From: Alteromonadales bacterium alter-6D02
GTDB taxonomy: Bacteria > Pseudomonadota > Gammaproteobacteria > Enterobacterales > Psychrobiaceae
Assembly (NCBI GenBank): GCA_002835545.1
Contig: PIZK01000001.1
Span: 124,001-188,000, forward strand
Direction: 5' to 3'
Length of the DNA: 64,000 nt
Positions 1 through 18,229 of this stretch are shown piece by piece. Within the stretch, counting starts at the first letter, position 1, and each line of letters opens with the position of its first letter. The position numbers and the translations under genes were made by a program. Below the pieces are notes generated by a model. That model did no database searches, was not told the DNA's origin, and saw only the letters and a list, made by a program, of their open reading frames with translations.

Positions 1-98
1 TTGTCATAGACATGAAGTTTCAGCGCTGCTTCAGCCGAGGTTACTGGTGTTAGTAACATCAGTGAAGCACCAACGAATATATATCTACCCTTAGCCAC
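1..98 (-). CDS. Exported protein of the filament locus (N-terminus only)
   Basis: The gene runs off the left edge. A GTG at 98 overlaps the secretin stop codon and opens a frame of about 32 codons with a typical signal peptide: a basic start (AKGRY), a hydrophobic core (IFVGASLMLL) and a likely cleavage site after TSAEA. The overlap suggests translational coupling as the last visible gene of the filament operon. It does not look like MshM, an AAA ATPase that usually follows mshL in MSHA loci, because it has an export signal and no Walker motif in the visible part. Function unknown. Confidence 0.55.
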   Translation of the reverse strand, partial: MAKGRYIFVGASLMLLTPVTSAEAALKLHVYD

Positions 99-2199
99 GA
101 TGAGCAAGGGACTCATCAAACGGTAATTCAGAGACTAAATATAAATAGGTTTTGTCATTGCGATTACCCTGTGGTGCTAAGTTGTTAACCTCGATTGACG
201 ACGCTAACCAGCGGCCGCTTATGTTCTGATAATCAACCGCTTGAAAGTGTGTTGATGTATTACTCACCTCAACCACGGTGACAAATAACGCACCATGTTG
301 CCAACTTTCCAAGGCTTGAACGCTAAGACTGCGGTTATTCAATAGCTCCGTGATGTTGCTGTTGGTATACCGTGCTGGCATGTAATGCTCATTCTGGATA
401 CGCTGACCTGTGGGTGTACGCATCGAGTTCGCCGCATATTGACTCATTTTCAAATAAAGCTGTTGCTTTTGAGCTTGGCTTTGCGTCGAATTGGCAGGTT
501 GTTTTTTGCCAATAAACTTGTTCTCAAAAGGTACAACGTCTGGGTGGCCTTGATTAAAATCACGGTAGAAGCGGTTGTCAGCACCACGGATTTTGTCACT
601 GTCATCAGTTCTCGTGAGGATCCGTGGGGTGATTAGTAAGATAGTTTCCGTTTCTTGTTCACTTTCAATGGTACTTTTAAAAACGTGACCAATAATTGGG
701 ATCTCAGATAAGAAAGGGACCTTTTGAATATTACTTACTTTCTTATTTCTGATTAAACCGCCGACAGCTACGGTTAGGTTATTTTTAGCCACAACGGTAC
801 CAGTGAGCCTTGAAGAGTTGACAGTATCAATAGGTAAGTTTAGAACGCCACCTTCGCCATCCGCGATAGGTAGGGTGGTTCCTCCGGGTCTAACCTCCGA
901 GCTTTCTTGTTCGAGGGTTAAGGCGACGGTACCATCGGTATTAATTTTAGGCACTATCCGCAGGGTGATCCCAATTTCTTGTAACTCAGTTTCTGTTTGA
1001 ATATATGCGGGCGACACCACAAGGCCATTGTCAATCGTTGCTGGGTTAAAGGTGAAACCGCGCACTAACAGCGTTTCTTCTCCGATAAATAACTCGGCCT
1101 GACGATGATTAGACGCGAGTACCATCGGGTTTGATAGTACTTTTATGCGTCGATTTTTTTCTAAAAACTCGATGTTGGCACGTAATCGATTATTCAAAAA
1201 CTCGTAGATCACTGAGCCGGAATTTGGCAGTGCATTATTACCGAGCTTAATCGGACGCACCGATTGATTGCTGCCACTAGACTCTAATTGAAAATCGAAA
1301 ATTGAGGTAAAGTCTTCACCAAGTGTAATACTGACTATTTTCATCTCCAGCATGACCTGCGGAATTTCCATATCCATTTTTTTAACTAAATGAGCAATCG
1401 ATTTAAGCACCGCACGGTCATCGGTACGCACTACAATCATGCTATGTTCGTTGTTAACCGTGATATAAATAGGTTGTGATTGTGCACTGATTTGCGCTAG
1501 TGCTTGATTATTCAGTGCACTTGAACCTTGCATTGCTAGGGATAAACGCTCAAATTGATCGACGGTTAATCGACTGGTATCAAATGAATTATTGTTAGCG
1601 CCTCGAGATGAACCATTATTGGAATTAGCCGATCGATTATCGCGGTTGGTGGAACGAGAGTTTCTAACCCCGCCAGAAGATTGGCGTGAGTTACTGTTGC
1701 TACTCGCGCGCGATGAACCTCCAGCGCCTCCTTCGACTTGCTCACCCAGCGATAAAATTACGCGGCTACCGTACAAGTCCTCAATGGATTTTGCAATAAT
1801 TCTGACATTGGCGTTTCTTACTTTATAGATTTCAATGTGTTCGCTTTCGCGTACCACTAAGTCTTTGGCGTATTCTTCACGCGTCATCAAACGGAAGGTG
1901 TTGGTATCTTCGTCAAAGCGAAACCATAAGTCGGTAATGCGGCTAATCGACTTTAAGGCGTTTTCAACGGTGGTGTTTTTTAAATGAATGGTGACTTTTT
2001 TTTGCGTCGCCGCCGGCGTGGCGATGATGTTACTGCTTGATAACTCAGACAATGTCCGCACCACATCAATCAAGTCGGTATTATTAAACTCTAACTCTTT
2101 AACCTGAGTCGCCGCTGCCACACTAGGCGCTAGCGCGATGAAGCAACCGAGTGAAAAACATAATGATAAAATTAACGTTAACTGTTTCATCGCTGACAT
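91..2199 (-). CDS. Secretin of a type IV filament system (MshL/PilQ/GspD-like)
   Basis: Outer-membrane secretin that would form the exit pore of the filament. A signal peptide covers about residues 1-29. An STN-type domain follows (about 38-95, beginning LEFNNTDLIDVV), then a second N-domain interrupted by a Ser/Asn/Gly-rich linker (about 158-206), then the secretin core (about 285-530) ending in ETETILLITPRIL. About 170 further residues do not resemble the secretin fold and may be an S-domain-like or accessory region. The start is ambiguous: ATG at 2199 shares a base with the upstream stop (TAATG), while ATG at 2190 has better spacing from a GAGG ribosome site. MshL is the closest family by eye. 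Confidence 0.85.
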   Translation of the reverse strand: MSAMKQLTLILSLCFSLGCFIALAPSVAAATQVKELEFNNTDLIDVVRTLSELSSSNIIATPAATQKKVTIHLKNTTVENALKSISRITDLWFRFDEDTNTFRLMTREEYAKDLVVRESEHIEIYKVRNANVRIIAKSIEDLYGSRVILSLGEQVEGGAGGSSRASSNSNSRQSSGGVRNSRSTNRDNRSANSNNGSSRGANNNSFDTSRLTVDQFERLSLAMQGSSALNNQALAQISAQSQPIYITVNNEHSMIVVRTDDRAVLKSIAHLVKKMDMEIPQVMLEMKIVSITLGEDFTSIFDFQLESSGSNQSVRPIKLGNNALPNSGSVIYEFLNNRLRANIEFLEKNRRIKVLSNPMVLASNHRQAELFIGEETLLVRGFTFNPATIDNGLVVSPAYIQTETELQEIGITLRIVPKINTDGTVALTLEQESSEVRPGGTTLPIADGEGGVLNLPIDTVNSSRLTGTVVAKNNLTVAVGGLIRNKKVSNIQKVPFLSEIPIIGHVFKSTIESEQETETILLITPRILTRTDDSDKIRGADNRFYRDFNQGHPDVVPFENKFIGKKQPANSTQSQAQKQQLYLKMSQYAANSMRTPTGQRIQNEHYMPARYTNSNITELLNNRSLSVQALESWQHGALFVTVVEVSNTSTHFQAVDYQNISGRWLASSIEVNNLAPQGNRNDKTYLYLVSELPFDESLAHRG

Positions 2200-2678
2200 T
2201 ACCTCTGAACTCTAATCGAACCGAGCATACCGGCCTCGACAGTGACACTAAAACGGGTGATTTTGGTGATACGAATAGCGCTGTTTGGCACCGTAGGGTC
2301 GATATTAATTTCATCACCTTCATGAATGATATAGGTACGGTTACCAGCAACCTCTAATAAGGCAACGGGTTTGTCGTCTGTCTTACCTATATAGCCGCGT
2401 AAGCGCATTTTCGGTAAATTGGCGTTAGAGGGTGAGCGCATAAAGCCATAACCTTCTGCACCCGAGGCACTGCCTTTGAGAGACATGGTGTCAAACATTA
2501 GCGAGCTTGGCGTAAACGGATCGCGGATTGACCTGATTGCTTCATATTGCTGCTGCGCATTGACTACATTGATTTGGTTGGCCTGGACTACTACCGGTGT
2601 GATAGACACTGCGACAAGCGCACCTAACCCTAAAGTGACTCGTTTTAACTGCGATTCTTTTGCTAAAAAAACATTCAT
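2199..2678 (-). CDS. PilP-like periplasmic lipoprotein or adaptor
   Basis: A 159-residue protein with an N-terminal hydrophobic segment (about 15-33) and a periplasmic part that matches the PilP/GspC plan. It has the RDPF motif near residue 52, a KMRLRGYIG segment, a short beta domain with ALLEVAGNRTYIIHEGD, and a closing VTVEAG strand. In type IV pili PilP links the inner-membrane PilN/PilO complex to the secretin, which fits its position directly before the secretin gene. No lipobox cysteine is visible, so it is probably anchored by its N-terminal helix rather than a lipid. The stop overlaps the secretin start by one base. Confidence 0.7.
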   Translation of the reverse strand: MNVFLAKESQLKRVTLGLGALVAVSITPVVVQANQINVVNAQQQYEAIRSIRDPFTPSSLMFDTMSLKGSASGAEGYGFMRSPSNANLPKMRLRGYIGKTDDKPVALLEVAGNRTYIIHEGDEINIDPTVPNSAIRITKITRFSVTVEAGMLGSIRVQR

Positions 2679-2680
2679 TG

Positions 2681-3901
2681 TTAACCACCTACTAATGAAA
2701 ATAGCGCTTGGAAAAACGCGTAATAAACAAAACCAACCATCACCCCAATCAATAAGATCATGGCGGGCTCAATTAACGCAGTCATGCGCTTAATGGCAAT
2801 ATCAAGCAAGTTTGCGTAATAACTGCCCATTTCTTTTAATACTTTATCGAGGCTACCGGTGCGCTCACCAACGGTTATCATCCTTGTCACCAATAATGGG
2901 ATGCGTGGATGCTGTAAGCTAGTGGCGAGATCTTTACCCGTTAGCACCCGTTCAGCAGCGTCGTGCATTTTGTTTGAAAAGACCCGATTAGGGAGTAAAT
3001 CTCCGGTGAGTTTTAATGATTGATAGACACTGACACCACTACCCAATAACGTTGATAACGCCCACGTTACTTGTCCCATGGACGCTGTGGTGATCATCGG
3101 GCCAATCACGGGTATGCGCAGCGATAGGTAGTCAATCAGCAAGCGGCCTTGTTTGATTTGATAAACCAGCAGCAATAACACAATAAACACAGCGGCTACG
3201 CCAAGTATCCACAGACCATGCTGTTGGGTGTAATTGGACATATCGATTAAGGTTTGCGTTGATGGCGGCAACGTTTTACCTTGGCCTAATAAAAAGTCAG
3301 CAAATTTGGGGATGATTTTAATCATCATAAATGCGGCGACACCGATGGCGGCGATGATCACAATCACTGGGTAAATCATCGCATTGGTCATTTGCGCGCG
3401 CAGTGCGGCTTTTTTCTCTAAATGGAGTGCCAATCGTTCCATAATGGTGTCTAAATCACCAATATTCTCACCCGCAATCACCAAGTTGATTGAAATATCA
3501 GGGAACACGTCAGGGTGCTTTTGCATGGCGGTGGAAAATGAGTGCCCCGACTCGATATCTTTGAGCATTAATTTGGTGGCTAAGCGTAAGCGTGCACTGC
3601 CGATTTGTTCATTGGTTAAGGTGAGTGACTCTGATACCGCTAAGCCTGCACGTAACATAAATGCCATTTGGCGAAAAAAGAAGATAAGCTCAGCAGGGGA
3701 TACCGAACGCTGCGAGGCCAGCCAATCACTAAAGTTTTCTTGACCGCCAAATCCGCCTTGCATACGCGCCGGTTTTATTTCTAATACTCGTAAGCGTTGC
3801 TCACGCAGTGCTTCCATCGCGGCATTAATATTGGGTGCTTGCTGTTTGCCTTTGAGTTCACCGCCAGTTGCGGTTAATACAGTGTATGAAAAAGTAGGCA
3901 T
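2681..3901 (-). CDS. Inner-membrane platform protein, GspF/PilC family
   Basis: A protein of about 406 residues with the usual tandem GspF domains. It begins MPTFSYTV, has the first domain at about 65-190 (FFFRQMAFMLRAGL) and the second at about 270-390 (STLLGSGVSVYQSLKL), and three hydrophobic helices near 170-200, 225-245 and 375-400. PilC/GspF proteins sit at the base of the filament and couple the ATPase to pilin insertion. ATG at 3901 is preferred over an upstream GTG at 3910: it follows the ATPase stop by two bases and is preceded by GAGGTG. Length is typical. Confidence 0.9.
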   Translation of the reverse strand: MPTFSYTVLTATGGELKGKQQAPNINAAMEALREQRLRVLEIKPARMQGGFGGQENFSDWLASQRSVSPAELIFFFRQMAFMLRAGLAVSESLTLTNEQIGSARLRLATKLMLKDIESGHSFSTAMQKHPDVFPDISINLVIAGENIGDLDTIMERLALHLEKKAALRAQMTNAMIYPVIVIIAAIGVAAFMMIKIIPKFADFLLGQGKTLPPSTQTLIDMSNYTQQHGLWILGVAAVFIVLLLLVYQIKQGRLLIDYLSLRIPVIGPMITTASMGQVTWALSTLLGSGVSVYQSLKLTGDLLPNRVFSNKMHDAAERVLTGKDLATSLQHPRIPLLVTRMITVGERTGSLDKVLKEMGSYYANLLDIAIKRMTALIEPAMILLIGVMVGFVYYAFFQALFSLVGG

Positions 3902-3903
3902 AA

Positions 3904-5550
3904 CTAACACACCTCTATCGATTGATGTGTTTTAACAAGGGCGACACTACGAACTTCACTGAGCGTTGTGATGCCTAACAACACTTTTTGACAGCCATCT
4001 TGCCACATGAACTTTAAGTTTTCGCCTGCGGCCTGTTCGAGCGCTTCTTCGCTGCACCCTTGCGAGACTAAACGCGCTAAGCTTTCATCAAACCATAAAG
4101 TTTCAAATAGGCCTAAACGGCCTTTAAACCCAGTGCCTTGACAGCTGGCACAGCCTACGGGCTCAAAAATTTGTAATTGCTGGTCATCACAATCAAGTTG
4201 ACTTAGCTCATCAGCGGTGGCCACTCGTGGTTGTTTACAGCTATCACATAGCCTTCTGACTAATCGCTGGGCTATGACCGCGGCCATAGTTGAGCCAATT
4301 AAAAACGGCTCACAGCCTATATCGATCAATCGCGTGACTGCGCTGACGGCATTGTTAGTATGCAGGGTCGAAAAAACTAAATGCCCAGTCATTGCTGCTT
4401 TAACCGAGACATCAGCGGTCTCATGATCACGGATTTCACCGACCATGAGTACATCAGGGTCGTGGCGTAATAGCGAGCGCAGGGCATCGGCGAAACTAAT
4501 CTTTAGCCCTGTTTGCAGTTGTGACACGCCGGGTATGACGTATTCAATCGGGTTTTCAACGGTCATGATATTGATATCCGATTGATTAATTTCCTGCAAT
4601 GCGGCGCATAAGGTGGTGGATTTGCCGCTACCAGTAGGGCCTGTCAGTAATACCATGCCATAAGGCTTGTTAATTTGTTGTTGAAAGCGCTTAAGATCAT
4701 CTTCCAACATACCTAAATCAGCTAGGGTGATGCCGCCTGTTTGCTGACCTAGTAATCTTAGGGTTATGCGTTCACCTAAACGGGTTGGTGCGGTAGCAAC
4801 ACGAACATTAAATTCACAACTGATAGGCGCAGCGAGCTTATGGCTATAGCCGCCATCTTGCGGTTGGCGCTGTTCGGCAATGTCTAAATTAGCTAACACT
4901 TTGATTCGAGATATTAAGCCTGCTGCGACCGTTTCATCGGCATCAACAGGGTAGTCTCGTAACTTTCCATCAATGCGTAATCGAACGCGCAAGCCGTGCT
5001 CTTCGGTGGAAAAGTGAATATCAGATGCTTTGTTTAAGAAGGCCTCCTTGATGATTTCATCAAGCAGCGCCACCAAATCAACATCAATGGCTTTCGTTGA
5101 GGTATCCTCTAGCGCGCCGTGTCGGTTTAGTTGTCTTTTTATTAGCAAATTAAGGTGTTTAATATCAGTCATTGCTAGCGGTAAGGGTTGACCAATTAAG
5201 CGCTGAATTGAATCGATTGAAACGCGTTCATAGGGGTCTGAAACAACCAGCATTGTGTTGCTGTTGTGTGTCACTGGGACTATGGATTTGCGTTTGAGTA
5301 AACTTACGGGTAATTGCTTGACCAGATCTTGCTCAATAGTAAAGCTATCGGCTTCTAAATAAGGTAAGTTATTTTTTTCCGCCACCGCGCGATAAAAAAT
5401 GGTGATGGATAATCGATAGTGAGCCAGCACCAGCTCAATCACTGAGCTGCGCTGTCTGCGTGCTGTTGTCCTAAGGTTATCTATCACACTGGCTTCAATC
5501 AGCCCGTAATAAAGAGCCGCTTCCAGTAGTTTTTCGTCAGTCAACGCCAT
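3904..5550 (-). CDS. Filament assembly ATPase, GspE/PilB family
   Basis: A 548-residue secretion ATPase. The N-terminal helical domain (about 1-75) is of the GspE_N type but lacks a clean RLG-type c-di-GMP signature. The ATPase core has an Asp-box region near 177 (DIHFSTEEHGLRV), Walker A GPTGSGKST at 304-312, Walker B with VGEIRDHETA near 370, a His box (STLHTN), and two CxxC pairs (CDSC, CASC) forming the usual zinc module near 435-470. It would power filament extension. No PilT-like retraction ATPase is present in the window. It ends two bases before the platform gene. Confidence 0.93.
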   Translation of the reverse strand: MALTDEKLLEAALYYGLIEASVIDNLRTTARRQRSSVIELVLAHYRLSITIFYRAVAEKNNLPYLEADSFTIEQDLVKQLPVSLLKRKSIVPVTHNSNTMLVVSDPYERVSIDSIQRLIGQPLPLAMTDIKHLNLLIKRQLNRHGALEDTSTKAIDVDLVALLDEIIKEAFLNKASDIHFSTEEHGLRVRLRIDGKLRDYPVDADETVAAGLISRIKVLANLDIAEQRQPQDGGYSHKLAAPISCEFNVRVATAPTRLGERITLRLLGQQTGGITLADLGMLEDDLKRFQQQINKPYGMVLLTGPTGSGKSTTLCAALQEINQSDINIMTVENPIEYVIPGVSQLQTGLKISFADALRSLLRHDPDVLMVGEIRDHETADVSVKAAMTGHLVFSTLHTNNAVSAVTRLIDIGCEPFLIGSTMAAVIAQRLVRRLCDSCKQPRVATADELSQLDCDDQQLQIFEPVGCASCQGTGFKGRLGLFETLWFDESLARLVSQGCSEEALEQAAGENLKFMWQDGCQKVLLGITTLSEVRSVALVKTHQSIEVC

Positions 5551-5558
5551 TCTTCCCC

Positions 5559-6251
5559 CTACAATGCCAACACAAGTTCAGCCTTTAAGGCTTGGGCATA
5601 ACCACGTAATGGTGTGATTGGTTGCTTTTCTATTTTCATTCTGACTACGGTGACTTGCCATGGTAGATTATCGAGTTCTTGGATAAAGGCGCGAATACTG
5701 CGGTATTGTCCCGCCAGTTCAACACGTTGTAATGGACGGTAATACAAGGTGTTAGGAGCCATGCGTTCGAGCCAACCGTATGAAGCGGGTAGGACGATTT
5801 CCTTGTTCTCTTCGTTAGCTGGCGATCTTTTATTTTTACGTCTTTTTTGCGCGACTTGTTTTTGTGCAGCAGGCTTGCCTTCAATGCGTTCATTGGTGGT
5901 GATCCGCACTTTAAGGTCGCGGGCTAGTTGCGACACCAATACCTTAAGCTCCTGTGAGTCTTGTGGTGCTAACCGTTGTTGTACGCTGGTGGCCATCTCA
6001 CTAATGACCGCCATTGCCAGTTCTTGATCGTCTAATTGAGAGAGCAATTGCTGGGCATCCTGATCGGGTGCGGCGGGAATACGCGCTTTTAATAGTTTAC
6101 GCTCAGTTTTTTTCGCATTGCGTTCAAGTGAGCTTATATCTTGATAAGCAGGAATAAAACGCAGCAGACTATAGCCACCGATAATAACGACGATTAAGGT
6201 GATCGCGATAAGTATTTGTTCGCTTTGCTTTAATTGTGCTAGTTTACTCAT
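5559..6251 (-). CDS. PilO/GspM-like inner-membrane protein
   Basis: A 230-residue bitopic protein: a short cytoplasmic start, one membrane helix (about 13-32, ILIAITLIVVIIGGYSLL), a coiled coil with many Lys, Glu and Gln residues (about 40-110), a basic linker (about 128-148, QKRRKNKRSPANEENK) and a ferredoxin-like C-terminal half. That plan is PilO/GspM/MshJ. Such proteins dimerise with PilN and hold the periplasmic adaptor. The gene is packed 5 bases after the PilM/N-like gene and 8 bases before the ATPase, so it belongs to the same operon. Family assignment rests on layout more than on motifs. Confidence 0.7.
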   Translation of the reverse strand: MSKLAQLKQSEQILIAITLIVVIIGGYSLLRFIPAYQDISSLERNAKKTERKLLKARIPAAPDQDAQQLLSQLDDQELAMAVISEMATSVQQRLAPQDSQELKVLVSQLARDLKVRITTNERIEGKPAAQKQVAQKRRKNKRSPANEENKEIVLPASYGWLERMAPNTLYYRPLQRVELAGQYRSIRAFIQELDNLPWQVTVVRMKIEKQPITPLRGYAQALKAELVLAL

Positions 6252-6256
6252 AGTGT

Positions 6257-8017
6257 CTAGCTCCTCGTTGGTAAGGACGCAGGGTCCACTAATTTAACGA
6301 TGCGTAGTGTCACCGAAAACCCTTGTAAATTCAGTGGCCCTGGGCGAGCCACAACATTACTGTTTAATATTTCAAGACCCCAAGGCTGGGCAGACTGCTC
6401 TAGTTTTTGAATAAACTGTTGCGCAGCGGTTTCTGATAACGCCCAAGCTTGCAGGTTAAAGTTTTCAATCGCGATACGCTGATCTTTGTTGCGACTTTGT
6501 TTATTCGAACCATAAACAGAGCGTCTATCGACTTCATCGATGGAGTTAACAATGATGTCATCATTAATCGATTCTTGCAGAATGCCTAAAATAGACTGTA
6601 CCAAAGCAGCCCGCTCTGGAAGCTCTTCACCAAAGAAGGTGAAACGTTGCTGCTCACGCTCCTTTAAAACTTCTTTATCTTTGAGTTGTTTTTTACGTTC
6701 ACTCACTTGCCTGATGTCGCCATTAATGCGCTTCATCACCGCACTCATGCTTTGCCAGCGTTCGTCAACTTGTGCTTTATGTGACTCAACTAAGTTGCTG
6801 CGCACTAATAACACTGACTCTGCAATTAGAATAAGCAGCGCGATGGCACTGAGTAATAAGCCGCCACGAACAGTGGGTCGGTGTAATAGAGCAGGCAGTG
6901 GTCCGCCTAAACGAACCTGACTGACCCATTGGTTTTTACCCATGCCTAAATAATGCAGGCCAGCACCGATCATCCCTGGACTCGATTTGTCGGTGATTGA
7001 GTTGCTTTGAACATCGATAATCTCACGGTCTAATGCACTGGCTAAGTCATCGTGGGTATTATGTTCGTTATGCGACCAATTGGATAAATAGATTTTGGCG
7101 TCACTTGCGACATTTTGGGTATGAAATGCTTCTAAGCAGCGCTCTGTTGGGCTTTTTGATGCGTCCAAATACAGATGTTGTTCAACGATATGATTGTTTT
7201 CTATACGGGTGGTAGATGACATTCCCGGATGTGATTCAATTAAGACTTGCTCTTGGACAGAGTCACTCAATAAGCTGGCACTTGCGCCTGCCAGTGGGTA
7301 CATCGCTTGTAATGTGATGCCCTGCATTTGGAAGACCGTGGTCCAACGTTGTAATAATGATTTAGTCACCGCACTGACTTGCCAGTAATACGTGCCGGGA
7401 ATGTCACTGACTTCACCTTGCGGCGACCAACCACACTCGATTAAGTCGTCATCAGATTTGAGCCATTCTTGTCCGGCTAAACAGGCATTAAGCTGACTGC
7501 GCTTAATAAACCCTAGCTCTTCGGCCAAATCGCCAAAACGGCGTAATGAGAACTTATCGGTGAGTTCAAGGCCGCCCGCTGGATTGACACGCCCTTGTTG
7601 CAAGTCCATCACCGCATCCGCTTGCTCTTGAGTCATATAACCGCGAGCAATCAGCAAGTTGCCCACTGAGCATTGCGTGGTGTGCTGCACTAACAACGGT
7701 TCGGCTTCCCAGCGGATCAGTTCATTCATTTGCGCCAGTGGCCGTGGCTTCTTAGGATTAACCTGCAGTTCGAGCATAGTTGATAGCACGGTAGGCGATA
7801 GCAATACAGCGTCACCGCCTTGCCAGCCATCGTTTTTTAGGCTAGTTACCACATCGGCGACAGCTTCGGCCATGTCAGCTTGTTGTGACTCGGCCGTTTG
7901 TAACACGGCTAACTCGTTGCCAGCACGGACATAAACTGCTGCGCGTAACAGAAAACCATCTGTTTCACAGACTAAAATTGACTTGGATTTTGCAAATTTA
8001 AATAAGGGTTTAAGCAT
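6257..8017 (-). CDS. Fused PilM/PilN-like platform protein with two MshEN-like motifs
   Basis: About 586 residues. The N-terminal 350 residues follow the actin-like PilM/GspL/MshI plan (SILVCETDGFLLRAAVY, then YYWQVSAVTKSLLQRW and MYPLAGASASLL). One membrane helix lies near 385-407, followed by a coiled coil and a PilN-like periplasmic domain (AWALSETAAQQFIQKL). Two 24-residue segments at about residues 117-140 and 160-183 match the MshEN nucleotide-binding repeat (G, LL, G-x-hydrophobic, final Q) and interrupt the actin-like domain. ATG at 8017 overlaps the previous stop as TAATG; a GTG at 8032 would add five residues. The protein probably recruits the ATPase and spans the inner membrane. 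Confidence 0.75.
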   Translation of the reverse strand: MLKPLFKFAKSKSILVCETDGFLLRAAVYVRAGNELAVLQTAESQQADMAEAVADVVTSLKNDGWQGGDAVLLSPTVLSTMLELQVNPKKPRPLAQMNELIRWEAEPLLVQHTTQCSVGNLLIARGYMTQEQADAVMDLQQGRVNPAGGLELTDKFSLRRFGDLAEELGFIKRSQLNACLAGQEWLKSDDDLIECGWSPQGEVSDIPGTYYWQVSAVTKSLLQRWTTVFQMQGITLQAMYPLAGASASLLSDSVQEQVLIESHPGMSSTTRIENNHIVEQHLYLDASKSPTERCLEAFHTQNVASDAKIYLSNWSHNEHNTHDDLASALDREIIDVQSNSITDKSSPGMIGAGLHYLGMGKNQWVSQVRLGGPLPALLHRPTVRGGLLLSAIALLILIAESVLLVRSNLVESHKAQVDERWQSMSAVMKRINGDIRQVSERKKQLKDKEVLKEREQQRFTFFGEELPERAALVQSILGILQESINDDIIVNSIDEVDRRSVYGSNKQSRNKDQRIAIENFNLQAWALSETAAQQFIQKLEQSAQPWGLEILNSNVVARPGPLNLQGFSVTLRIVKLVDPASLPTRS

Positions 8018-9573
8018 TATTGAATCGTCCACTCTATTGCTGCGCCATTGATAGGCAGAGTCGTTCTGGGTACTAAGCTGATACTGTGTGGGCGGCTGAT
8101 ATTATTGGCTGTGTTATCGTCACAATCGCCGTTAAATAATTGCCCCTTTTCAGTGCCTGTTTCACACACTACGGTGAAGGCTTTTTCACCGAGCGGGAAA
8201 ACAGATGCTGCAGGGATAGTTAAGGTGTTACCTACCGCTGCTGGTGTGTTGCTTGGTAGGGTAATTTCTTCGTTTGATGTGTCTAATGTGATGGTGTTGT
8301 CGCTGGTGCGAGTAAAGGACTGTGATACGGTGATAGTCGCGCCGGATAAAATGACATTCCTGTCAACCATCGTTGAGTTGCTATCTTGCAGGGTAATGAT
8401 TGCACCTGAAGGTAAACTTAAGGTGTTATTCATTAATTCTGTATCTAACGGGACGGTGATAATGGGTTTGGCGAAGTTAGGCGCGTTTATTGGGGCTATA
8501 TGGTCAGGAGAAATTGATACTGTTCCATTAGCACTGAACGTAACTGAGGTGATTGTTCCGGGTGTAGCTTCTTCAGACAGTGTTAAAACGCAAGTGGGGG
8601 AACAGCTATTGTTTAGCGAAAGGTCACCTGCATTGCCGTCACTATCGGTAAAAGTAACTGTGGTTGATGAGTCGATTGTAATGCTGACTTTATCTAATTC
8701 CACCGTTGCATTAGCCGAGAATTTTAATTCATCACCTGACGCTACAGAAAAACGTCCATTTAATGAAGGAGTGAATATATCACTCTCAGGAAAGCTACGG
8801 CTAAACACCGTCGAGCCGTCTCGTTTATCAGCGGTATCAAAGTCACTGTCGTTATAATCGGGAATTGCGCCATCCGTTGGGCTGTTTAATTTCAGGCGCA
8901 GGCTATTGGCGGGTATGAAAGTGCCGCTGGTGGATTCTGAATGAAACTTTACTGCAACGTCTTGCCAATCTGAGCCAAACGGCAGTTGGTAATCAAAGGG
9001 GGTTACTAGCTCTTGAGCTGCGCTTGGTTTAGGTACATCATCGTTATCAAGGCCATTAAAACCGCGACTCCCCACGCTTAAGCTGCCTGAGTCTATTGAA
9101 AAGTCCCAACCAGAGTTTTGCCAGTCTTCGCCAAATTCGTCGGTGGTATCGCCACTATTACCGTAACCATCCCGAAAATGAAATTTTCCGGTGAGTTCTG
9201 AACTACCTGCTAAGTATGGGCCGCGCCAGCCAGCCCATACATACGACTGTGCATCCTGTCGCCATAGGTTTAACTCATTATTATCACAATCCATTGGGCT
9301 GAGTAGTTCGCGCAAGCACTGGGGCAGACGGCCCATATCGGCGACAAAGCCACTGATTTGAGAGCGACCATTGACCAGCCTGCTGCTGTCACCGATGATG
9401 GCGCTGCGGATCATCGTTAGGCGTTGTTTAGTGACATCGTATTTGGCTTGGTCTTCAATGTTTTCAGTTAAAAACAGTGTTGATGAGGCCATGAGAGCTA
9501 ACAGAAACAGCACTAAGATGATTTCTAATAAGGTAAAGCCGCGCTGCTGCGTAAAGGTTAATTGAGTAGGCAT
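8017..9573 (-). CDS. Large prepilin with beta-rich C-terminal region
   Basis: About 518 residues. The short leader MPTQLTFTQQRG precedes FTLLEIILVLFLLAL, a class III prepilin cleavage site with Glu at position 5. A pilin-like section (to about 200) includes WRGPYL, a signature also seen in the neighbouring prepilin. The remaining 300 residues are rich in Thr, Ser, Asn and Asp with alternating hydrophobics and carry paired cysteines, which suggests a secreted beta domain. A large minor pilin of this kind could sit at the filament tip as an adhesin. ATG at 9573 is chosen because it directly precedes the leader; it overlaps the upstream gene by 16 bases. Confidence 0.8.
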   Translation of the reverse strand: MPTQLTFTQQRGFTLLEIILVLFLLALMASSTLFLTENIEDQAKYDVTKQRLTMIRSAIIGDSSRLVNGRSQISGFVADMGRLPQCLRELLSPMDCDNNELNLWRQDAQSYVWAGWRGPYLAGSSELTGKFHFRDGYGNSGDTTDEFGEDWQNSGWDFSIDSGSLSVGSRGFNGLDNDDVPKPSAAQELVTPFDYQLPFGSDWQDVAVKFHSESTSGTFIPANSLRLKLNSPTDGAIPDYNDSDFDTADKRDGSTVFSRSFPESDIFTPSLNGRFSVASGDELKFSANATVELDKVSITIDSSTTVTFTDSDGNAGDLSLNNSCSPTCVLTLSEEATPGTITSVTFSANGTVSISPDHIAPINAPNFAKPIITVPLDTELMNNTLSLPSGAIITLQDSNSTMVDRNVILSGATITVSQSFTRTSDNTITLDTSNEEITLPSNTPAAVGNTLTIPAASVFPLGEKAFTVVCETGTEKGQLFNGDCDDNTANNISRPHSISLVPRTTLPINGAAIEWTIQ

Positions 9574-10376
9574 AATACGTGGTCCATTGCCTGTGCGTGA
9601 CACTCATCAGCGTCGTTATCTTCAAATAGGCCATCACTGCCTGCGGCAATGATTCTGGCTTGGTAGTTACCAACGGGATTATTTAAATCAACCCTGAACA
9701 GGTAAGGTGAAGCGCTGCTATTGATAAAATCACTGCCGCTGTCAAGTGACCACTCAATGCCTGAATCGGTACTGTTATTAGTATAAGGGTCGGCAACTGA
9801 CCAAAGCGGGTTGCTGATATCAATAAGGTTAACGGTGTTTGAGGTGAGGGTTAAATAACCGTCTTTACGTTGTAGGTATGGCCCGTTCCAGCCACGTTTG
9901 GTATCCATATTCCAGCCTGCGCCGAGTGGATCGGCAAAGAGCATCCATAAATTGGCAGGGTGTTGGCACCATGCAATTTTTTCGCTATCAGTGTTGCCTG
10001 CTGCTACGGGTAATTGACCATCGATGTTAGGGTTGATATCACTGGGATTGTCGTTAGCTACATCGGTACAGTCGTAGGCGCCTTGACGAGGAAAGTCATT
10101 GCTACCACTGTCTTGACGAAATTGAAGTAAGGCTTCACGCAGTTGGGTCATCTCAAACTTGGTCATATCGTAACGTCCTTGCTCTTGTGTGCCGTTATAG
10201 CTGGTGAGTGCGACGGTTGCTGTGATAGCCAATAAGGTGATCACCGTTAATAACTCGATTAAGGTAAAGCCCAAATGACGACTATGGATATAGCAGGTAT
10301 GACGATAGCGACCGTTATGCTGGCTGACGCTATGCTGTTTGATATTGCGTGTTGGAAAAAACAATAAACACCTCAT
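9558..10376 (-). CDS. Prepilin (minor or second pilin)
   Basis: A 272-residue prepilin. The cleavage motif G-FTLIELLTVITLLAI follows a leader of about 35 residues as drawn. That leader is unusually long and rich in His and Arg, so the true start may be an internal non-ATG codon. The mature part has a long N-terminal helix and a globular domain containing GWNGPYLQR, similar to GspG-like pilins, and ends with VLCLLN. It is likely a structural or initiating pilin of the same filament. It sits 270 bases downstream of the first pilin gene, behind a terminator, and may therefore be expressed at a lower level. Confidence 0.78.
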   Translation of the reverse strand: MRCLLFFPTRNIKQHSVSQHNGRYRHTCYIHSRHLGFTLIELLTVITLLAITATVALTSYNGTQEQGRYDMTKFEMTQLREALLQFRQDSGSNDFPRQGAYDCTDVANDNPSDINPNIDGQLPVAAGNTDSEKIAWCQHPANLWMLFADPLGAGWNMDTKRGWNGPYLQRKDGYLTLTSNTVNLIDISNPLWSVADPYTNNSTDSGIEWSLDSGSDFINSSASPYLFRVDLNNPVGNYQARIIAAGSDGLFEDNDADECHAQAMDHVLCLLN

Positions 10377-10649: not shown

Positions 10650-11771
10650 TTAGTCATCATCTGATTCAGCTGTTGCTTCAGCAGTGATTTGGTCAATAGT
10701 ACGGCCTTCCGGATCAACTACAGCGATTAAACGTGCTTTTTCTAGCACTTCATCTTCTTCAATTTTTCCTAACCCTCCATCAGCATCTTCATCTCGATTA
10801 TCCGATGCAACTTGGAATAAGGCGATAGCACGAGCGTAGTGAGTTTTAGGATTAACGTCATTGGTACCAACGGTCGGTACCTGACCGATTTCAACCGCTT
10901 CACCGAGTGTTGCGCCAGGGACTTCTTTACCGATACCTACTGCAACCACTAAATCACAACCTTCTGAACTAAGGCCATCACTAATCAGATTTAATGCTTT
11001 GTTTTCAACTATTGTTACAGTGCTATCAAAAGCTGCTGCTAAGCTTGACCCACCCTCTATTATGCAACCGTTAGTACCATTGCCTCCTGATGGCACAATA
11101 GAGAGAGCTATATTAGAGAAAGTATTTATTGACATGGTTTTTTCCGCAAAAGTTACGCCTCCACCGTCAGTAAATTCAATTTCTGAACCAGGATTTAGGG
11201 AGACTTCGCCATAGCTCTCATTCATCGCTAGATTAGGAATATAGTCATCATTCCAAGTTGTCTTACTTTGAACCGATTGCAGCTCTTCAAGGCCTGCTTC
11301 TCTTAATGAAGCAAAAATTGCTTTATTTACACCTGTCGGAGCATCAGCTTGAGCTGCTGCAATAGTTAATTGGCCAAAGAATTTTTTAGTTTCATCAGAC
11401 ATTAACTGCATCGCACCCACATGGTTTCCATCGCCATCTAATAATAGGCCATCAGCATTCGTTAAATTATCAAACTGTTCTGGGTATTCACCAACGATTG
11501 AACGGTAGTTACGTAAGGTACCTTCTAAGGTATTCACAGCGGCAGCGGCTGATGCATCTCGGGCATTTTCACCGGCACCATCGTAAGCAACCAGTGCAGC
11601 GGTTGATAGTGTTGCTAATAAAGTGATGACCACTAATAGCTCAAGTAAGGTGAAACCTTTTTGTTTTGCTTGCAGCTTTTTGGCTTTAGCGCGCATGGCG
11701 TCGTCTTTAATAATTGATACATCTGCATTTTTGAATTTAGCAATCGCTGTTTTTAGTTGACGAATATTCAT
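10650..11771 (-). CDS. Probable major pilin with very long basic leader
   Basis: A 373-residue prepilin, first gene of the filament locus. A 39-residue leader rich in Lys, Arg and Ala precedes the cleavage site KG-FTLLELLVVITLLATL with Glu at position 5. The mature protein has a long N-terminal helix (to about residue 90), an alpha/beta domain, two cysteines about 45 residues apart that could form the usual pilin disulfide, and an acidic tail (ATAESDDD). An internal ATG at codon 26 would give a normal 13-residue leader but has a weaker ribosome site. First position, its own terminator and the 3' hairpins suggest this is the most expressed pilin. Confidence 0.8.
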   Translation of the reverse strand: MNIRQLKTAIAKFKNADVSIIKDDAMRAKAKKLQAKQKGFTLLELLVVITLLATLSTAALVAYDGAGENARDASAAAAVNTLEGTLRNYRSIVGEYPEQFDNLTNADGLLLDGDGNHVGAMQLMSDETKKFFGQLTIAAAQADAPTGVNKAIFASLREAGLEELQSVQSKTTWNDDYIPNLAMNESYGEVSLNPGSEIEFTDGGGVTFAEKTMSINTFSNIALSIVPSGGNGTNGCIIEGGSSLAAAFDSTVTIVENKALNLISDGLSSEGCDLVVAVGIGKEVPGATLGEAVEIGQVPTVGTNDVNPKTHYARAIALFQVASDNRDEDADGGLGKIEEDEVLEKARLIAVVDPEGRTIDQITAEATAESDDD

Positions 11772-12714: not shown

Positions 12715-14031
12715 TTGAGTATACGTGCCATCATTAATTTGCGGATTTTAGCATCGGTTATTTTGATTTTAATCTTTAGCGCGATCATTGCTATTTGGCA
12801 GGCTAGAGCTTCCGTTGAGCAAGAAGTGCGCTCTTCGATTAATTTAGCCGTGCAGATGATTGATTTTGGTTTTGCTCAACAGTCGACTTCAAGCGATGAA
12901 AATGATGTGTGGTTAGATAAAGTTGCCACTATGAAACCCGTTCGGCATTTGCATATATCCATTGAAGATCATAATCGAGCACTACACGAGAGGGTGTCTG
13001 CGGCGCTTGATGACGACGAAGAAAGTGCACCACAATGGTTTACTAGGGCGGTGATGGCTGATTTTTTCACTCATAATCATCAAATTCAAGTCGCTGATGG
13101 ATCGACTAAAACTATTGCGATAACCGCTAATCCAATGGATGAAATTAGTGAGGCATGGGGAGAAACTAAGGCGTTTTTTTGGTCGATTGTGTTAATGCTC
13201 TCAATTATCTTTTGCACTGTTAATCTAGTGTTCAACTCTATGCTTAAAGCTGTTAAGGAGATTTTATCCGGTTTGCGTCAAGTTGAATCAGGTAATTTTG
13301 ACTATGTGTTACCGCAATTTAAAATTAGTGAGTTTGATGATATCGCCAAAGAAGTTAATGGCATGTCTGTTGCGCTTAAGACCGCACAACAAAGTAACCA
13401 AGCCTTGGCGCGCCACACCATGCAGATTCAAGAAACAGAGCGACAAACGATGTCTCGTGAATTGCATGATGAGATGGGACAATCGTTAACGGCAATAAAA
13501 GCGATGGCGGTGACTTGTCAGCAACCCGATGCTGATGTTAAGGCGGTCAGCAGAGCGATTGTTGATATTTGTAACCACTTAGCGGTGGTTGTGCGTTCGA
13601 TGATGCGTACGCTACACCCACTGAGCTTAACTGAACTTGGCTTGGGGGCAACCTTATCTGAGCTGGTTAGGGAGTGGCAGCGACGCGTGCCAGAGTTGGA
13701 GTTTAACTTAAACTACGATGAGGCATTGGAGTCATTGAGTCATGAAGTGACGATTCATGTGTATCGAATCGTGCAAGAATGTCTGACTAATGTGATCCGT
13801 CATGCTAATGCCACTGAGGTGGCTATTTTAGTGGTAAAGCGTGGCAATAAAGTATGGCTTACGGTGTCGGATAATGGACAAGGTGGCCAGTTAACCCCCT
13901 CTGGCTTTGGTCTGTTAGGAATGCGCGAACGAGCTGAGAATTTGGGTGGCCAGTTTAAACTAGAGTCTTTGCCAAACAATGGCGTTAATGTTGTCGTAAA
14001 ATTACCGTACTGGGAAGATAATAATGAATAA
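12715..14031 (+). CDS. Membrane sensor histidine kinase, NarX/MoxY type
   Basis: 438 residues. A first membrane helix (about 9-28), a periplasmic sensor domain of about 120 residues, a second helix (about 150-175) and a HAMP-like linker precede a HisKA_3 dimerisation domain with the H-box SRELHDEMGQSL near 250. The HATPase_c domain follows (QECLTNVIRHANA, then DNGQGG and GFGLLGMRERAE). The start is a TTG with a GAGG ribosome site 8 bases upstream; no nearby ATG fits as well. It overlaps the response regulator gene by 8 bases. The sensed signal is unknown. Divergent placement makes it a candidate regulator of the pilins. Confidence 0.9.
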   Translation: MSIRAIINLRILASVILILIFSAIIAIWQARASVEQEVRSSINLAVQMIDFGFAQQSTSSDENDVWLDKVATMKPVRHLHISIEDHNRALHERVSAALDDDEESAPQWFTRAVMADFFTHNHQIQVADGSTKTIAITANPMDEISEAWGETKAFFWSIVLMLSIIFCTVNLVFNSMLKAVKEILSGLRQVESGNFDYVLPQFKISEFDDIAKEVNGMSVALKTAQQSNQALARHTMQIQETERQTMSRELHDEMGQSLTAIKAMAVTCQQPDADVKAVSRAIVDICNHLAVVVRSMMRTLHPLSLTELGLGATLSELVREWQRRVPELEFNLNYDEALESLSHEVTIHVYRIVQECLTNVIRHANATEVAILVVKRGNKVWLTVSDNGQGGQLTPSGFGLLGMRERAENLGGQFKLESLPNNGVNVVVKLPYWEDNNE

Positions 14032-14671
14032 CGATAAAATAAAAGTATTATTGATTGATGATCACACGGTTGTTCGGGCTGGTTTTAGAATGTTGCTGGC
14101 CTCGCAGCCCTTTATTGGTGATATTGTTGATATTGAGCGCGGTGAACTTGCCACTCAAGAATATCAGCGCTTTGAACCCGATGTGGTAGTGATGGATTTA
14201 TCAATGCCAGGTATTGGCGGTCTCGAAGCGATACGTCGATTGTGCAAATACGACCCCGACGTTTTAGTATTGGTTTATAGCATTCATGATGAGTCTATTT
14301 ATGTGGAACGTGCGCTCGAGGCGGGAGCAAGAGGGTATGTTAGTAAAAATAGTGCCGCTGAGGTTTTAGCAACTGCGGTAGCTGAAATTGCCAGTGGTAA
14401 GCGTTATATTGAGCAAGGTTTATTACCTGAACAAGAAGGGATGGCTGGCGCAGATGAGCAGCAGTCAACACACAACCTTAGCTCACTTTCTCCCCGCGAG
14501 TTTGATGTGTTTTGTCTTCTCTCTAAAGGCTTAACTGCCCATGACATTGCAAGTGAGCTGAGCCTGAGTTATAAAACCATTTGTAATTACAATACGCAAG
14601 TGAAGAGTAAGCTTAAAGCGAGTACCGCAGCTGATTTAGCGAATATAGCAACGGCACATAATATTCGCTAA
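14024..14671 (+). CDS. Response regulator, NarL/UvrY (LuxR HTH) family
   Basis: 215 residues. The receiver domain begins VLLIDDHTVVRAGF, has the phospho-acceptor Asp in VVMDLSMPG and the conserved Lys in YVSKNSA. A C-terminal LuxR-type helix-turn-helix starts LSPREFDVFCLLSKG and includes the recognition helix SLSYKTICNYNTQVKSKL. It is translationally coupled to the kinase. The pair would control transcription; targets are not shown by the sequence, but the filament promoter 2 kb away is the obvious guess. Confidence 0.93.
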   Translation: MNNDKIKVLLIDDHTVVRAGFRMLLASQPFIGDIVDIERGELATQEYQRFEPDVVVMDLSMPGIGGLEAIRRLCKYDPDVLVLVYSIHDESIYVERALEAGARGYVSKNSAAEVLATAVAEIASGKRYIEQGLLPEQEGMAGADEQQSTHNLSSLSPREFDVFCLLSKGLTAHDIASELSLSYKTICNYNTQVKSKLKASTAADLANIATAHNIR

Positions 14672-16772: not shown

Positions 16773-17567
16773 ATGAAAACTAATTTGATTAAAAAGTTAA
16801 GCATCGCAAGCGGTATGCTTGCCGCTTCAATGTTCTCTGTTAATACACTAGCAGGGGAAATGATTACACTGGATTTTGACTCAGGTTTTTTGAAAAGTGA
16901 TGTAGTTGTAGGGCCTGATACATTTTTAGGCGTAGACAGTAACCCTATTTTTGGCAATACAACAGCAGGCAATACCATTGCTGGGCACGATACGTATACT
17001 TTCTTTGATTGGGATCGAAGTTTAACCCCAACACCTAGTGCATTTAGCTCACTGAAAGTCGAAAATTTTTCTGGCTTAATGCTTGATACCGATATCATCA
17101 ATACACCAGTGACTTTACAGTTATTTACGCAAGTGAATAACGTTATTCCGCGCGCACTAGAATGGGATGTGGGCATTATTAACCAACTCAAGATTAACAC
17201 TGTGATTGCAGATACTGCATTTAACAATATTCACTTTAAAGAGACGATCAATTCATCTCCTTGTGCAGATGGCAGTCCAAGTGGTTTAGTGTGTGATGAT
17301 ATTTATACGGTCAATGATATTTCTGCTGTGATCCCTGTTTATGTCAATGGTACTCACGCTAAAATTCGCATTTGGGTAGATCCTGTAGACCCTGTGGTAT
17401 GTAATGATAATGGAGCAACACTCGACTGTTTCACTCCTGAGGAAGTGCCAGGAACAACACAAATAGCAGTAAAAGCAGAGTTAATTGCGATTCCAGAGCC
17501 TGGTGTGTTAGCACTGATTGGTTTAGGTCTTGTTGGCTTAGGCTTTGGCCGACGTAAACGCAGCTAA
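16773..17567 (+). CDS. PEP-CTERM sorted extracellular protein
   Basis: 264 residues with a signal peptide (cleavage likely after NTLAG), a beta-rich body with Asp, Thr and Asn and two cysteine pairs, and a C-terminal PEP-CTERM signal: IPEPG, a hydrophobic stretch (VLALIGLGLVGLGF) and a basic end (GRRKRS). Proteins with this tail are processed by exosortase and usually delivered to the cell surface or the exopolysaccharide matrix. No exosortase is in the window, so it must be elsewhere in the genome. The body matches nothing I recognise. It is monocistronic, between an inverted repeat and a strong terminator. Confidence 0.88.
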   Translation: MKTNLIKKLSIASGMLAASMFSVNTLAGEMITLDFDSGFLKSDVVVGPDTFLGVDSNPIFGNTTAGNTIAGHDTYTFFDWDRSLTPTPSAFSSLKVENFSGLMLDTDIINTPVTLQLFTQVNNVIPRALEWDVGIINQLKINTVIADTAFNNIHFKETINSSPCADGSPSGLVCDDIYTVNDISAVIPVYVNGTHAKIRIWVDPVDPVVCNDNGATLDCFTPEEVPGTTQIAVKAELIAIPEPGVLALIGLGLVGLGFGRRKRS

Positions 17568-17592
17568 GCTGACATCTATCTAAGCCCCGATA

Positions 17593-17624
17593 AAAATTGC
17601 GCATTATTTAATGCGCAATTTTTT
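17593..17624 (+). terminator. Rho-independent terminator of the PEP-CTERM gene
   Basis: A 12-bp perfect stem (AAAATTGCGCAT with ATGCGCAATTTT, loop TATTTA) runs into a T tract about 25 bases after the stop codon. Confidence 0.92.
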
Positions 17625-17725
17625 ATTATCTAATCAAAGATTAATAATCATCAACTAATTAATAATTCTCTCGATAAATCAATAGTTACTGTTACAATTA
17701 GCTTTTTATGATGTTGAGAAAGAAA

Positions 17726-18229
17726 ATGGCCGTTTTAGAAATATTAACAGCACCCAATGAAAAACTAAAAGTGAAAGCAAAGCGTGTGACCGATGTCAGC
17801 ATCGTACAATCGTTGATTGATGACATGCTAGAGACGATGTACAGCACTGATGATGGTATTGGCTTAGCGGCCACACAGGTGGGCAGTGATCAGGCGGTGA
17901 TTATTATTGATATTTCTGACAACCGTGATGACCCTTTGATCCTAATTAATCCTAAAGTTGTCGCGGGAGAAAATAGAGCGAAAGGGCAAGAAGGTTGTCT
18001 ATCAGTACCGGGTTATTATGCTAATGTTGAACGTTTTACCAAGGTGACGGTGACTGGGCTTGATCGTGAAGGCCAAGAACAAGTTATCGAAAGTGATGAC
18101 TTTTTAGCGATTGTATTACAGCATGAGATTGATCATTTAGCAGGTCAGCTGTTTATCGACTACCTCTCACCATTAAAGAAAGGCATGGCAATGCGCAAGG
18201 TGAAGAAAACATTACAAGCAGCCAATTAA
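17726..18229 (+). CDS. def: Peptide deformylase
   Basis: 167-residue iron/zinc hydrolase that removes the N-formyl group from new proteins. The three family motifs are present: GIGLAATQVG, EGCLSVPG (metal-binding Cys) and QHEIDHLAG (metal-binding His pair and catalytic Glu). The start is taken at ATG 17726, giving MAVLEILT, rather than at 17708, because family members begin here and a GAGAAAG site precedes it. The usual fmt/rsmB neighbours are absent, so this may be a second deformylase in the genome. Confidence 0.93.
   Translation: MAVLEILTAPNEKLKVKAKRVTDVSIVQSLIDDMLETMYSTDDGIGLAATQVGSDQAVIIIDISDNRDDPLILINPKVVAGENRAKGQEGCLSVPGYYANVERFTKVTVTGLDREGQEQVIESDDFLAIVLQHEIDHLAGQLFIDYLSPLKKGMAMRKVKKTLQAAN

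Follow-up and report, generated by a model that had tools for sequence, protein, structure and literature searches.

Direct control of type IV filament machines by c-di-GMP is ascribed either to an MshEN domain at the N-terminus of the motor or to PilZ/FimX adaptors (PMC5013675, PMC11656802, PMC8389850). A locus in Alteromonadales bacterium alter-6D02 raises the question of whether c-di-GMP may instead be read by the stationary frame of such a machine. The window (the whole stretch of DNA analysed, 64,000 nucleotides) had been predicted to encode two 24-residue MshEN-type motifs, at 7469-7669, inside the actin-like domain of a pilus platform protein. We found both motifs at exactly those nucleotides, on the minus strand.

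The platform protein and its operon

The gene for this protein is placed before a GspM/PilO-like gene, in an operon that also encodes an ATPase, a GspF/PilC-like protein and a secretin, and its neighbours are:

91-2199, minus strand: secretin (Pfam Secretin 1e-32, NCBIfam MshL 5.7e-32)
2199-2678, minus strand: PilP/GspC-like small protein, assigned by position and conserved, with no Pfam match
2681-3910, minus strand: PilC/GspF-like membrane protein (Pfam T2SSF 7.9e-51)
3904-5550, minus strand: PilB/GspE-like ATPase with a degenerate N-terminal MshEN bundle (Pfam T2SSE 1.7e-119, MshEN 3.2e-8)
5559-6251, minus strand: GspM/PilO-like protein (weak T2SSM here; PilO and T2SSM in homologues)
8017-9603, minus strand: large pilin-like protein with an N-methylation motif (Pfam N_methyl)
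9558-10376, minus strand: pilin-like protein (Pfam N_methyl)
10650-11771, minus strand: pilin-like protein (Pfam N_methyl, weak T2SSG)

Inspection of the larger loci showed largely the same gene order, and the remaining loci have its ATPase/PilC part. The C-terminal part of the secretin (91-2199) matches DUF3438 / TIGR03749, an integrating conjugative element family, which makes the protein an unusual secretin fusion. The same genome encodes, immediately outside the window next to position 1, a GGDEF protein with a periplasmic binding-protein-like part (L159:12221-13855), whose gene adjoins the outer-membrane barrel-like gene that closes the operon. At the matching operon end of L009 there is an EAL-domain gene (17257-17772), and neither a GGDEF nor an EAL gene was seen at this position in the other loci scanned. 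Genes for a histidine kinase and a NarL-type response regulator at 12715-14671 of the window, kept beside the system in L009, L010 and L029, encode candidate regulators of the system.

A profile of the platform family picks PilN proteins over the C-terminal half of the protein, and a relative that is free of the insert (L026) matches Pfam PilN above the cut-off. No T2SSL or PilM_2 family match was obtained for the platform protein, and HHalign comparison of its cytoplasmic part, without the insert, to GspL, PilM and FtsA gave 1-23%, with 1-8% for the GspL/PilM-type platform families. The motif pair lies in the cytoplasmic domain, and we describe the N-terminal half as putatively actin-like on the basis of gene order, the PilN-type relative L026 and weak predicted topology. 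With residues numbered from the GTG start (the internal ATG encodes M6), the features of the protein are:

6257-8032, minus strand: GspL/PilM-PilN-like platform (stator) protein, 591 aa (open reading frame, gene order, 28 family platform proteins)
7670-8032, minus strand: N-terminal half of the putative actin-like domain, with the conserved LIRWEAEPLL helix as its C-terminal limit
7598-7669, minus strand: MshEN-like motif I, SVGNLLIARGYMTQEQADAVMDLQ, residues 122-145 (S122-Q145; matrix scan, HHalign, sub-threshold NCBIfam NF053729)
7541-7597, minus strand: 19-residue spacer between motifs I and II (alignment of homologues)
7469-7540, minus strand: MshEN-like motif II, RFGDLAEELGFIKRSQLNACLAGQ, residues 165-188 (R165-Q188; matrix scan, conservation)
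6803-6865, minus strand: transmembrane helix, about residues 390-410 (sequence)
6260-6802, minus strand: periplasmic coiled coil and PilN-like part (family profile, insert-free relative L026)

The residue numbers first given for the motifs, 117-140 and 160-183, hold when counted from M6 and become 122-145 and 165-188 from the GTG start. The 19-residue spacer (versus 5 in MshE) was found as claimed, and the first Arg of motif I is indeed replaced by Ser. The fit to the published consensus is partial, with motif I departing from it at positions 1, 17 and 21 (S/A/M, where motif II of the window has R/L/L) and motif II at position 7 (E).

Homology and predicted fold of the insert

To score the motifs, we used a matrix built from 26 genuine MshEN motifs, some of them taken from proteins that the family profile had brought up and that are bona fide MshEN by their own architecture. 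The two 24-mers were the top two windows of the platform protein (motif II, 20.7 bits; motif I, 19.3 bits; third window, -8.7 bits), and 0 of 20,000 shuffles reached the score of either motif. When control proteins of relatives (11 GspL, 11 PilM and 8 FtsA-type) were scanned with the same motif set, taking the background frequencies of the family, no window exceeded 3.2 bits.

A profile match to MshEN, which the original prediction had set as a test, was obtained with HHalign: the insert family (nine sequences) aligned to 13 genuine MshEN pairs with a probability of 98.4% and an E-value of 5.5e-15. In this alignment the two motifs are in register, and the longer spacer appears as an insertion. 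Comparison of the insert to GspL, PilM and FtsA as controls gave at most 0.2%, and the rest of the platform cytoplasmic domain gave 0.3% against MshEN. When the full-length family profile was run against all PDB chain sequences, MshE (5HTL) came first with both motifs spanned (E = 0.004), followed by four PilF entries with c-di-GMP-binding domains. Partial matches over the insert in genome scans were, where the protein was read, genuine MshEN proteins, among them ATPases, MshEN-CheX-type proteins, a glycosyltransferase and small membrane proteins.

Pfam MshEN gave no match on the platform protein, and NCBIfam NF053729 (c-di-GMP_motif, MshE-related) matched it with 20.4 bits (E = 3.3e-4), below the cut-off of 38; the same model matched 8 of 8 members of a divergent family alignment, each below the cut-off. 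Annotation pipelines miss the domain because its scores fall below curated cut-offs. While these database results could point to convergence or chance resemblance in an amphipathic helical stretch, we consider that explanation refuted for practical purposes by the shuffle test, the profile-profile score with its clean controls, the PDB profile search and the conservation of the pair in 28 platform proteins (see below). By these sequence comparisons, the platform protein carries a divergent MshEN-like domain. As to where the insert originated, HHalign scored the mixed MshEN set (98.4%) and MshEN-CheX (98.1%) alike.

Four MshEN motifs occur in proteins of 282-317 aa from L013-L016, L022, L051 and L067, and repeats 2-3 of these proteins are, by eye, closest to the insert; we take the C-terminal region of these MshEN-CheX four-motif proteins to be CheX-like. 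In gammaproteobacterial proteins of L041, L042, L045, L053, L055, L056, L062, L064 and L069, an N-terminal MshEN motif pair is directly followed by a hydrophobic segment resembling a signal peptide or lipobox and by a domain that is probably exported, an arrangement that possibly places c-di-GMP control ahead of an export or membrane-insertion signal.

The fold of the insert was modelled with AlphaFold2. The model of residues 108-200, made from a three-sequence alignment (mean pLDDT 63; motif blocks mostly 62-83), contains four helices at 122-129, 135-147, 163-172 and 178-186. For this segment, Foldseek ranked 5HTL, a structure of MshE in complex with c-di-GMP, first (probability 0.99, E = 0.21), and structures of PilB-N and PilF came after it. 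In VIA-align, 5HTL reached a Z value of 7.6 (57 residues) and the c-di-GMP-bound PilF structures 7.0-7.3, against 3.6 and lower for unrelated rows, and values of this size can reflect a mere common helical arrangement; together with the sequence evidence, we read them with modest confidence as support for an MshEN-type four-helix bundle. A model of the whole cytoplasmic domain from three close sequences, which at a pLDDT of 37 was used for the order of secondary structure only, has four helices that follow the LIRWEAEPLL helix and precede the YWQVSAV strand.

Conservation of the motifs in platform and motor proteins

Close relatives of the platform protein are encoded in two Colwellia genomes (75-77% identity). 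Distant homologues occur in further genera of the sampled order and class as well as in one additional order, where 21 of 63 genomes have them. The 398 genomes of the phylum sample yielded no full-length homologue outside Gammaproteobacteria, only MshEN or PilN proteins. The motif pair is at the same place in all 28 platform proteins, which come from scattered Gammaproteobacteria and include L032, a homologue that is split between two reading frames and whose C-terminal part was left unjoined; L026 is the one relative without the insert. The spacer is 11-19 residues long in homologues and is the least conserved stretch.

Twenty systems, including that of the window, have no PilT-like ATPase gene between the GspM-like and PilB-like genes (one of them, L150, ends within the ATPase gene, and its fragment matches the PilB-like N-terminus). 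Across this lineage Gly3, Gly10, Gln16 and Gln24 of motif I and Arg1, Phe2, Gly3, Ala6, Gly10 and Gln24 of motif II are invariant, so that Gly3 and Gln24 of both motifs are present in the window and in 20/20 systems. Motif I never has Arg1, with Ser or Thr in its place, and has Ala, Val or Ile at position 17 and Met, Ile, Asn, Arg or Gln at position 21. The ligand contacts of MshE are described as positions 1, 2, 3, 17, 21 and 24 (PMC5013675). Using these positions, we observed that 6 of 12 ligand contacts are invariant in the 20 systems compared with 4 of 36 other positions (p = 0.009), and 8 of 14 compared with 2 of 34 when the turn glycines are counted with the contacts (p = 0.0003), p-values that are optimistic in that the 20 sequences are related.

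The eight systems in which a gene for a PilT-like ATPase separates the GspM-like from the PilB-like gene (L027, L028, L030, L031, L032 and L156-L158) mostly keep motif II, and the presence of this gene coincides with loss of Gln24 from motif I. Among the six for which motif I was tabulated, Gln24 is found in none and Arg at position 17 in all; the remaining two have, as read from their sequences, Tyr at 17 and Val at 24. The original prediction had named poor conservation of the Gly, Leu and Gln positions as grounds for its refutation. The outcome is mixed and mainly in its favour, as the glycines are kept throughout and both glutamines in the window's lineage, with the motif-I Gln gone from the PilT-containing lineage and Leu17 and Leu21 of motif I not conserved.

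Single changes of conserved hydrophobics in MshE cost more than tenfold (PMC5013675). The GSPII-B domain of PilF has Lys and Leu at position 1 yet a KD of 6 nM, so that Arg1 is dispensable there; the two Gln are critical in this domain, and changing the corresponding pair to Glu abolished binding in PilF (PMC11731258). PilF GSPII-A, in which Ser occupies position 1 of motif II and other residues stand in for both Gln, is a non-binder (PMC12002112). By the effects of these published deviations, the window's protein lies between clear binders and clear non-binders. The insert could alternatively be a degenerate MshEN-like bundle that no longer binds a nucleotide but docks the motor or a regulator through protein-protein contacts, in analogy to XpsE and to the N-terminal bundle of Xanthomonas PilB, which binds PilZ. 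In favour of this reading, Arg1, Leu17 and Leu21 are replaced in motif I, as is Gln24 in the PilT-containing lineage; changes of this kind cost XpsE and PilF GSPII-A their binding (PMC5013675; PMC12002112), and PilB-N/PilZ is among the structural matches. We nevertheless consider a docking module less likely, given that both Gln24 residues are invariant in 20 systems while their neighbours vary, that both motif glycines and the Arg-Phe-Gly of motif II are fixed in the window's lineage, and that Gln24 is a ribose-phosphate contact to which PMC5013675 ascribes no core role.

A different or asymmetric nucleotide, such as cGAMP or a single guanine nucleotide, would suit a protein in which one half-site is canonical in nearly all homologues and the other is altered in a lineage-specific manner (Arg17 in 6/6 tabulated PilT-containing systems), and MshEN is reported to bind cGAMP as well (PMC5013675). 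Both Gln are kept in the window's lineage, however, and we regard such a ligand as improbable.

The partner ATPase (3904-5550), which was said to have lost the motif, contains no recognisable one (best window, -10.6 bits on the matrix). None of the 26 systems in which the ATPase N-terminus could be read has kept the motifs there (scores of -20.7 to 8.1). The pair is kept in the platform protein (28/28), and its loss in the motor agrees with the original prediction. A degenerate bundle is still recognisable in the ATPases of the system. On the same matrix the MshE of the same genome scores 44; its PilB and GspE are equally degenerate, and many ordinary PilB and GspE keep a degenerate bundle. 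Since motif loss in motors is common, and the genome's own PilB and GspE share it, the loss is not evidence of transfer, and that c-di-GMP control "moved from the motor" to the platform is a step we would have to infer.

A possible c-di-GMP receptor in the stator

Having weighed a docking module and other ligands, we favour c-di-GMP binding by the platform protein. We propose, as a reasonably probable explanation, that the protein, which is GspL-like or a PilM-PilN-like fusion, serves a type IV filament machine as its stator/platform subunit, that a divergent MshEN_N four-helix bundle interrupts its cytoplasmic domain after the WE.E helix and before the next strand, and that this insert binds c-di-GMP in the window's lineage and thereby switches filament assembly. 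Arg165, Phe166, Gly167 and Gln188 of motif II would form a canonical half-site, and Gly124 and Gln145 the other, with Ser, Ala and Met in place of the usual Arg, Leu and Leu. Judged from the motif residues, c-di-GMP binding itself is more likely than not in the window's lineage and clearly less so in the PilT-containing lineage. We see an even chance that the stator itself, and not the motor or an adaptor, is the c-di-GMP receptor, and that in the PilT-containing lineage, with its altered half-site, the ligand is a different one or is no longer bound.

The N-domains of GspE and EpsE bind GspL/EpsL (EpsE-EpsL and GspE-GspL crystal structures cited in PMC8389850), and PilMN stimulates Thermus thermophilus PilF only when the GSPIIC domain is present (PMC6325625). 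A ligand-binding bundle in the stator would be close to the stator-motor interface. Our analysis establishes the sequence, homology and placement of the insert, its conservation and the absence of the motifs from the motor, and it models the fold of the segment. We infer the fold within the full protein, the ligand, its affinity and its effect: c-di-GMP could stabilise, stiffen or reorient the insert, and the ligand-bound insert might change the docking of the stator ring or the activation of the ATPase, permitting or blocking motor docking; altered docking or activation of the ATPase would then switch filament assembly. If the receptor is in the stator, ligand binding would be separated from the ATPase, and the signal path through the stator would be directly testable. 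The finding also points to a whole uncharacterised filament system.

Known MshEN fusions include ATPases and glycosyltransferases and receiver, HD-GYP, CheA, CheX, cyclase and kinase domains (PMC5013675), and the titles, abstracts and passages that our literature search covered hold no report of MshEN in PilM, PilN or GspL. An MshEN-like domain in a GspL/PilM-PilN-like protein is a new architecture. Like GspL of type II secretion systems and PilM/PilN of type IV pili, the platform protein is encoded before a GspM/PilO-like gene and has a cytoplasmic domain, one transmembrane helix and a periplasmic PilN-like part; its insert of about 70-80 residues is absent from GspL and PilM of relatives. 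With MshE (Pfam PF05157; 5HTL) the insert shares two 24-residue motifs that each have Gly3, Gly10 and Gln24 and about 30% identity in register, and a four-helix bundle is predicted for it. The MshE domain is at the N-terminus of an ATPase, whereas the insert resides in a platform protein, with a spacer of 19 residues instead of 5 (a 53-residue unit in MshE), no Arg1 or Leu17/Leu21 in motif I, and no MshEN_C subdomain downstream. Repeats 2-3 of gammaproteobacterial MshEN-CheX proteins are much like the insert, as motif I begins with Ser and motif II contains RFGDLA, but these proteins are soluble, with four motifs and a 5-residue spacer. GSPII-B of Thermus thermophilus PilF (8PDK) is an MshEN-type bundle, as is predicted for the insert, and binds c-di-GMP although it lacks Arg at position 1; Lys and Leu replace this Arg in GSPII-B, whereas the insert has Ser or Thr in motif I and retains Arg in motif II, and GSPII-B belongs to the motor, unlike the insert in the platform.
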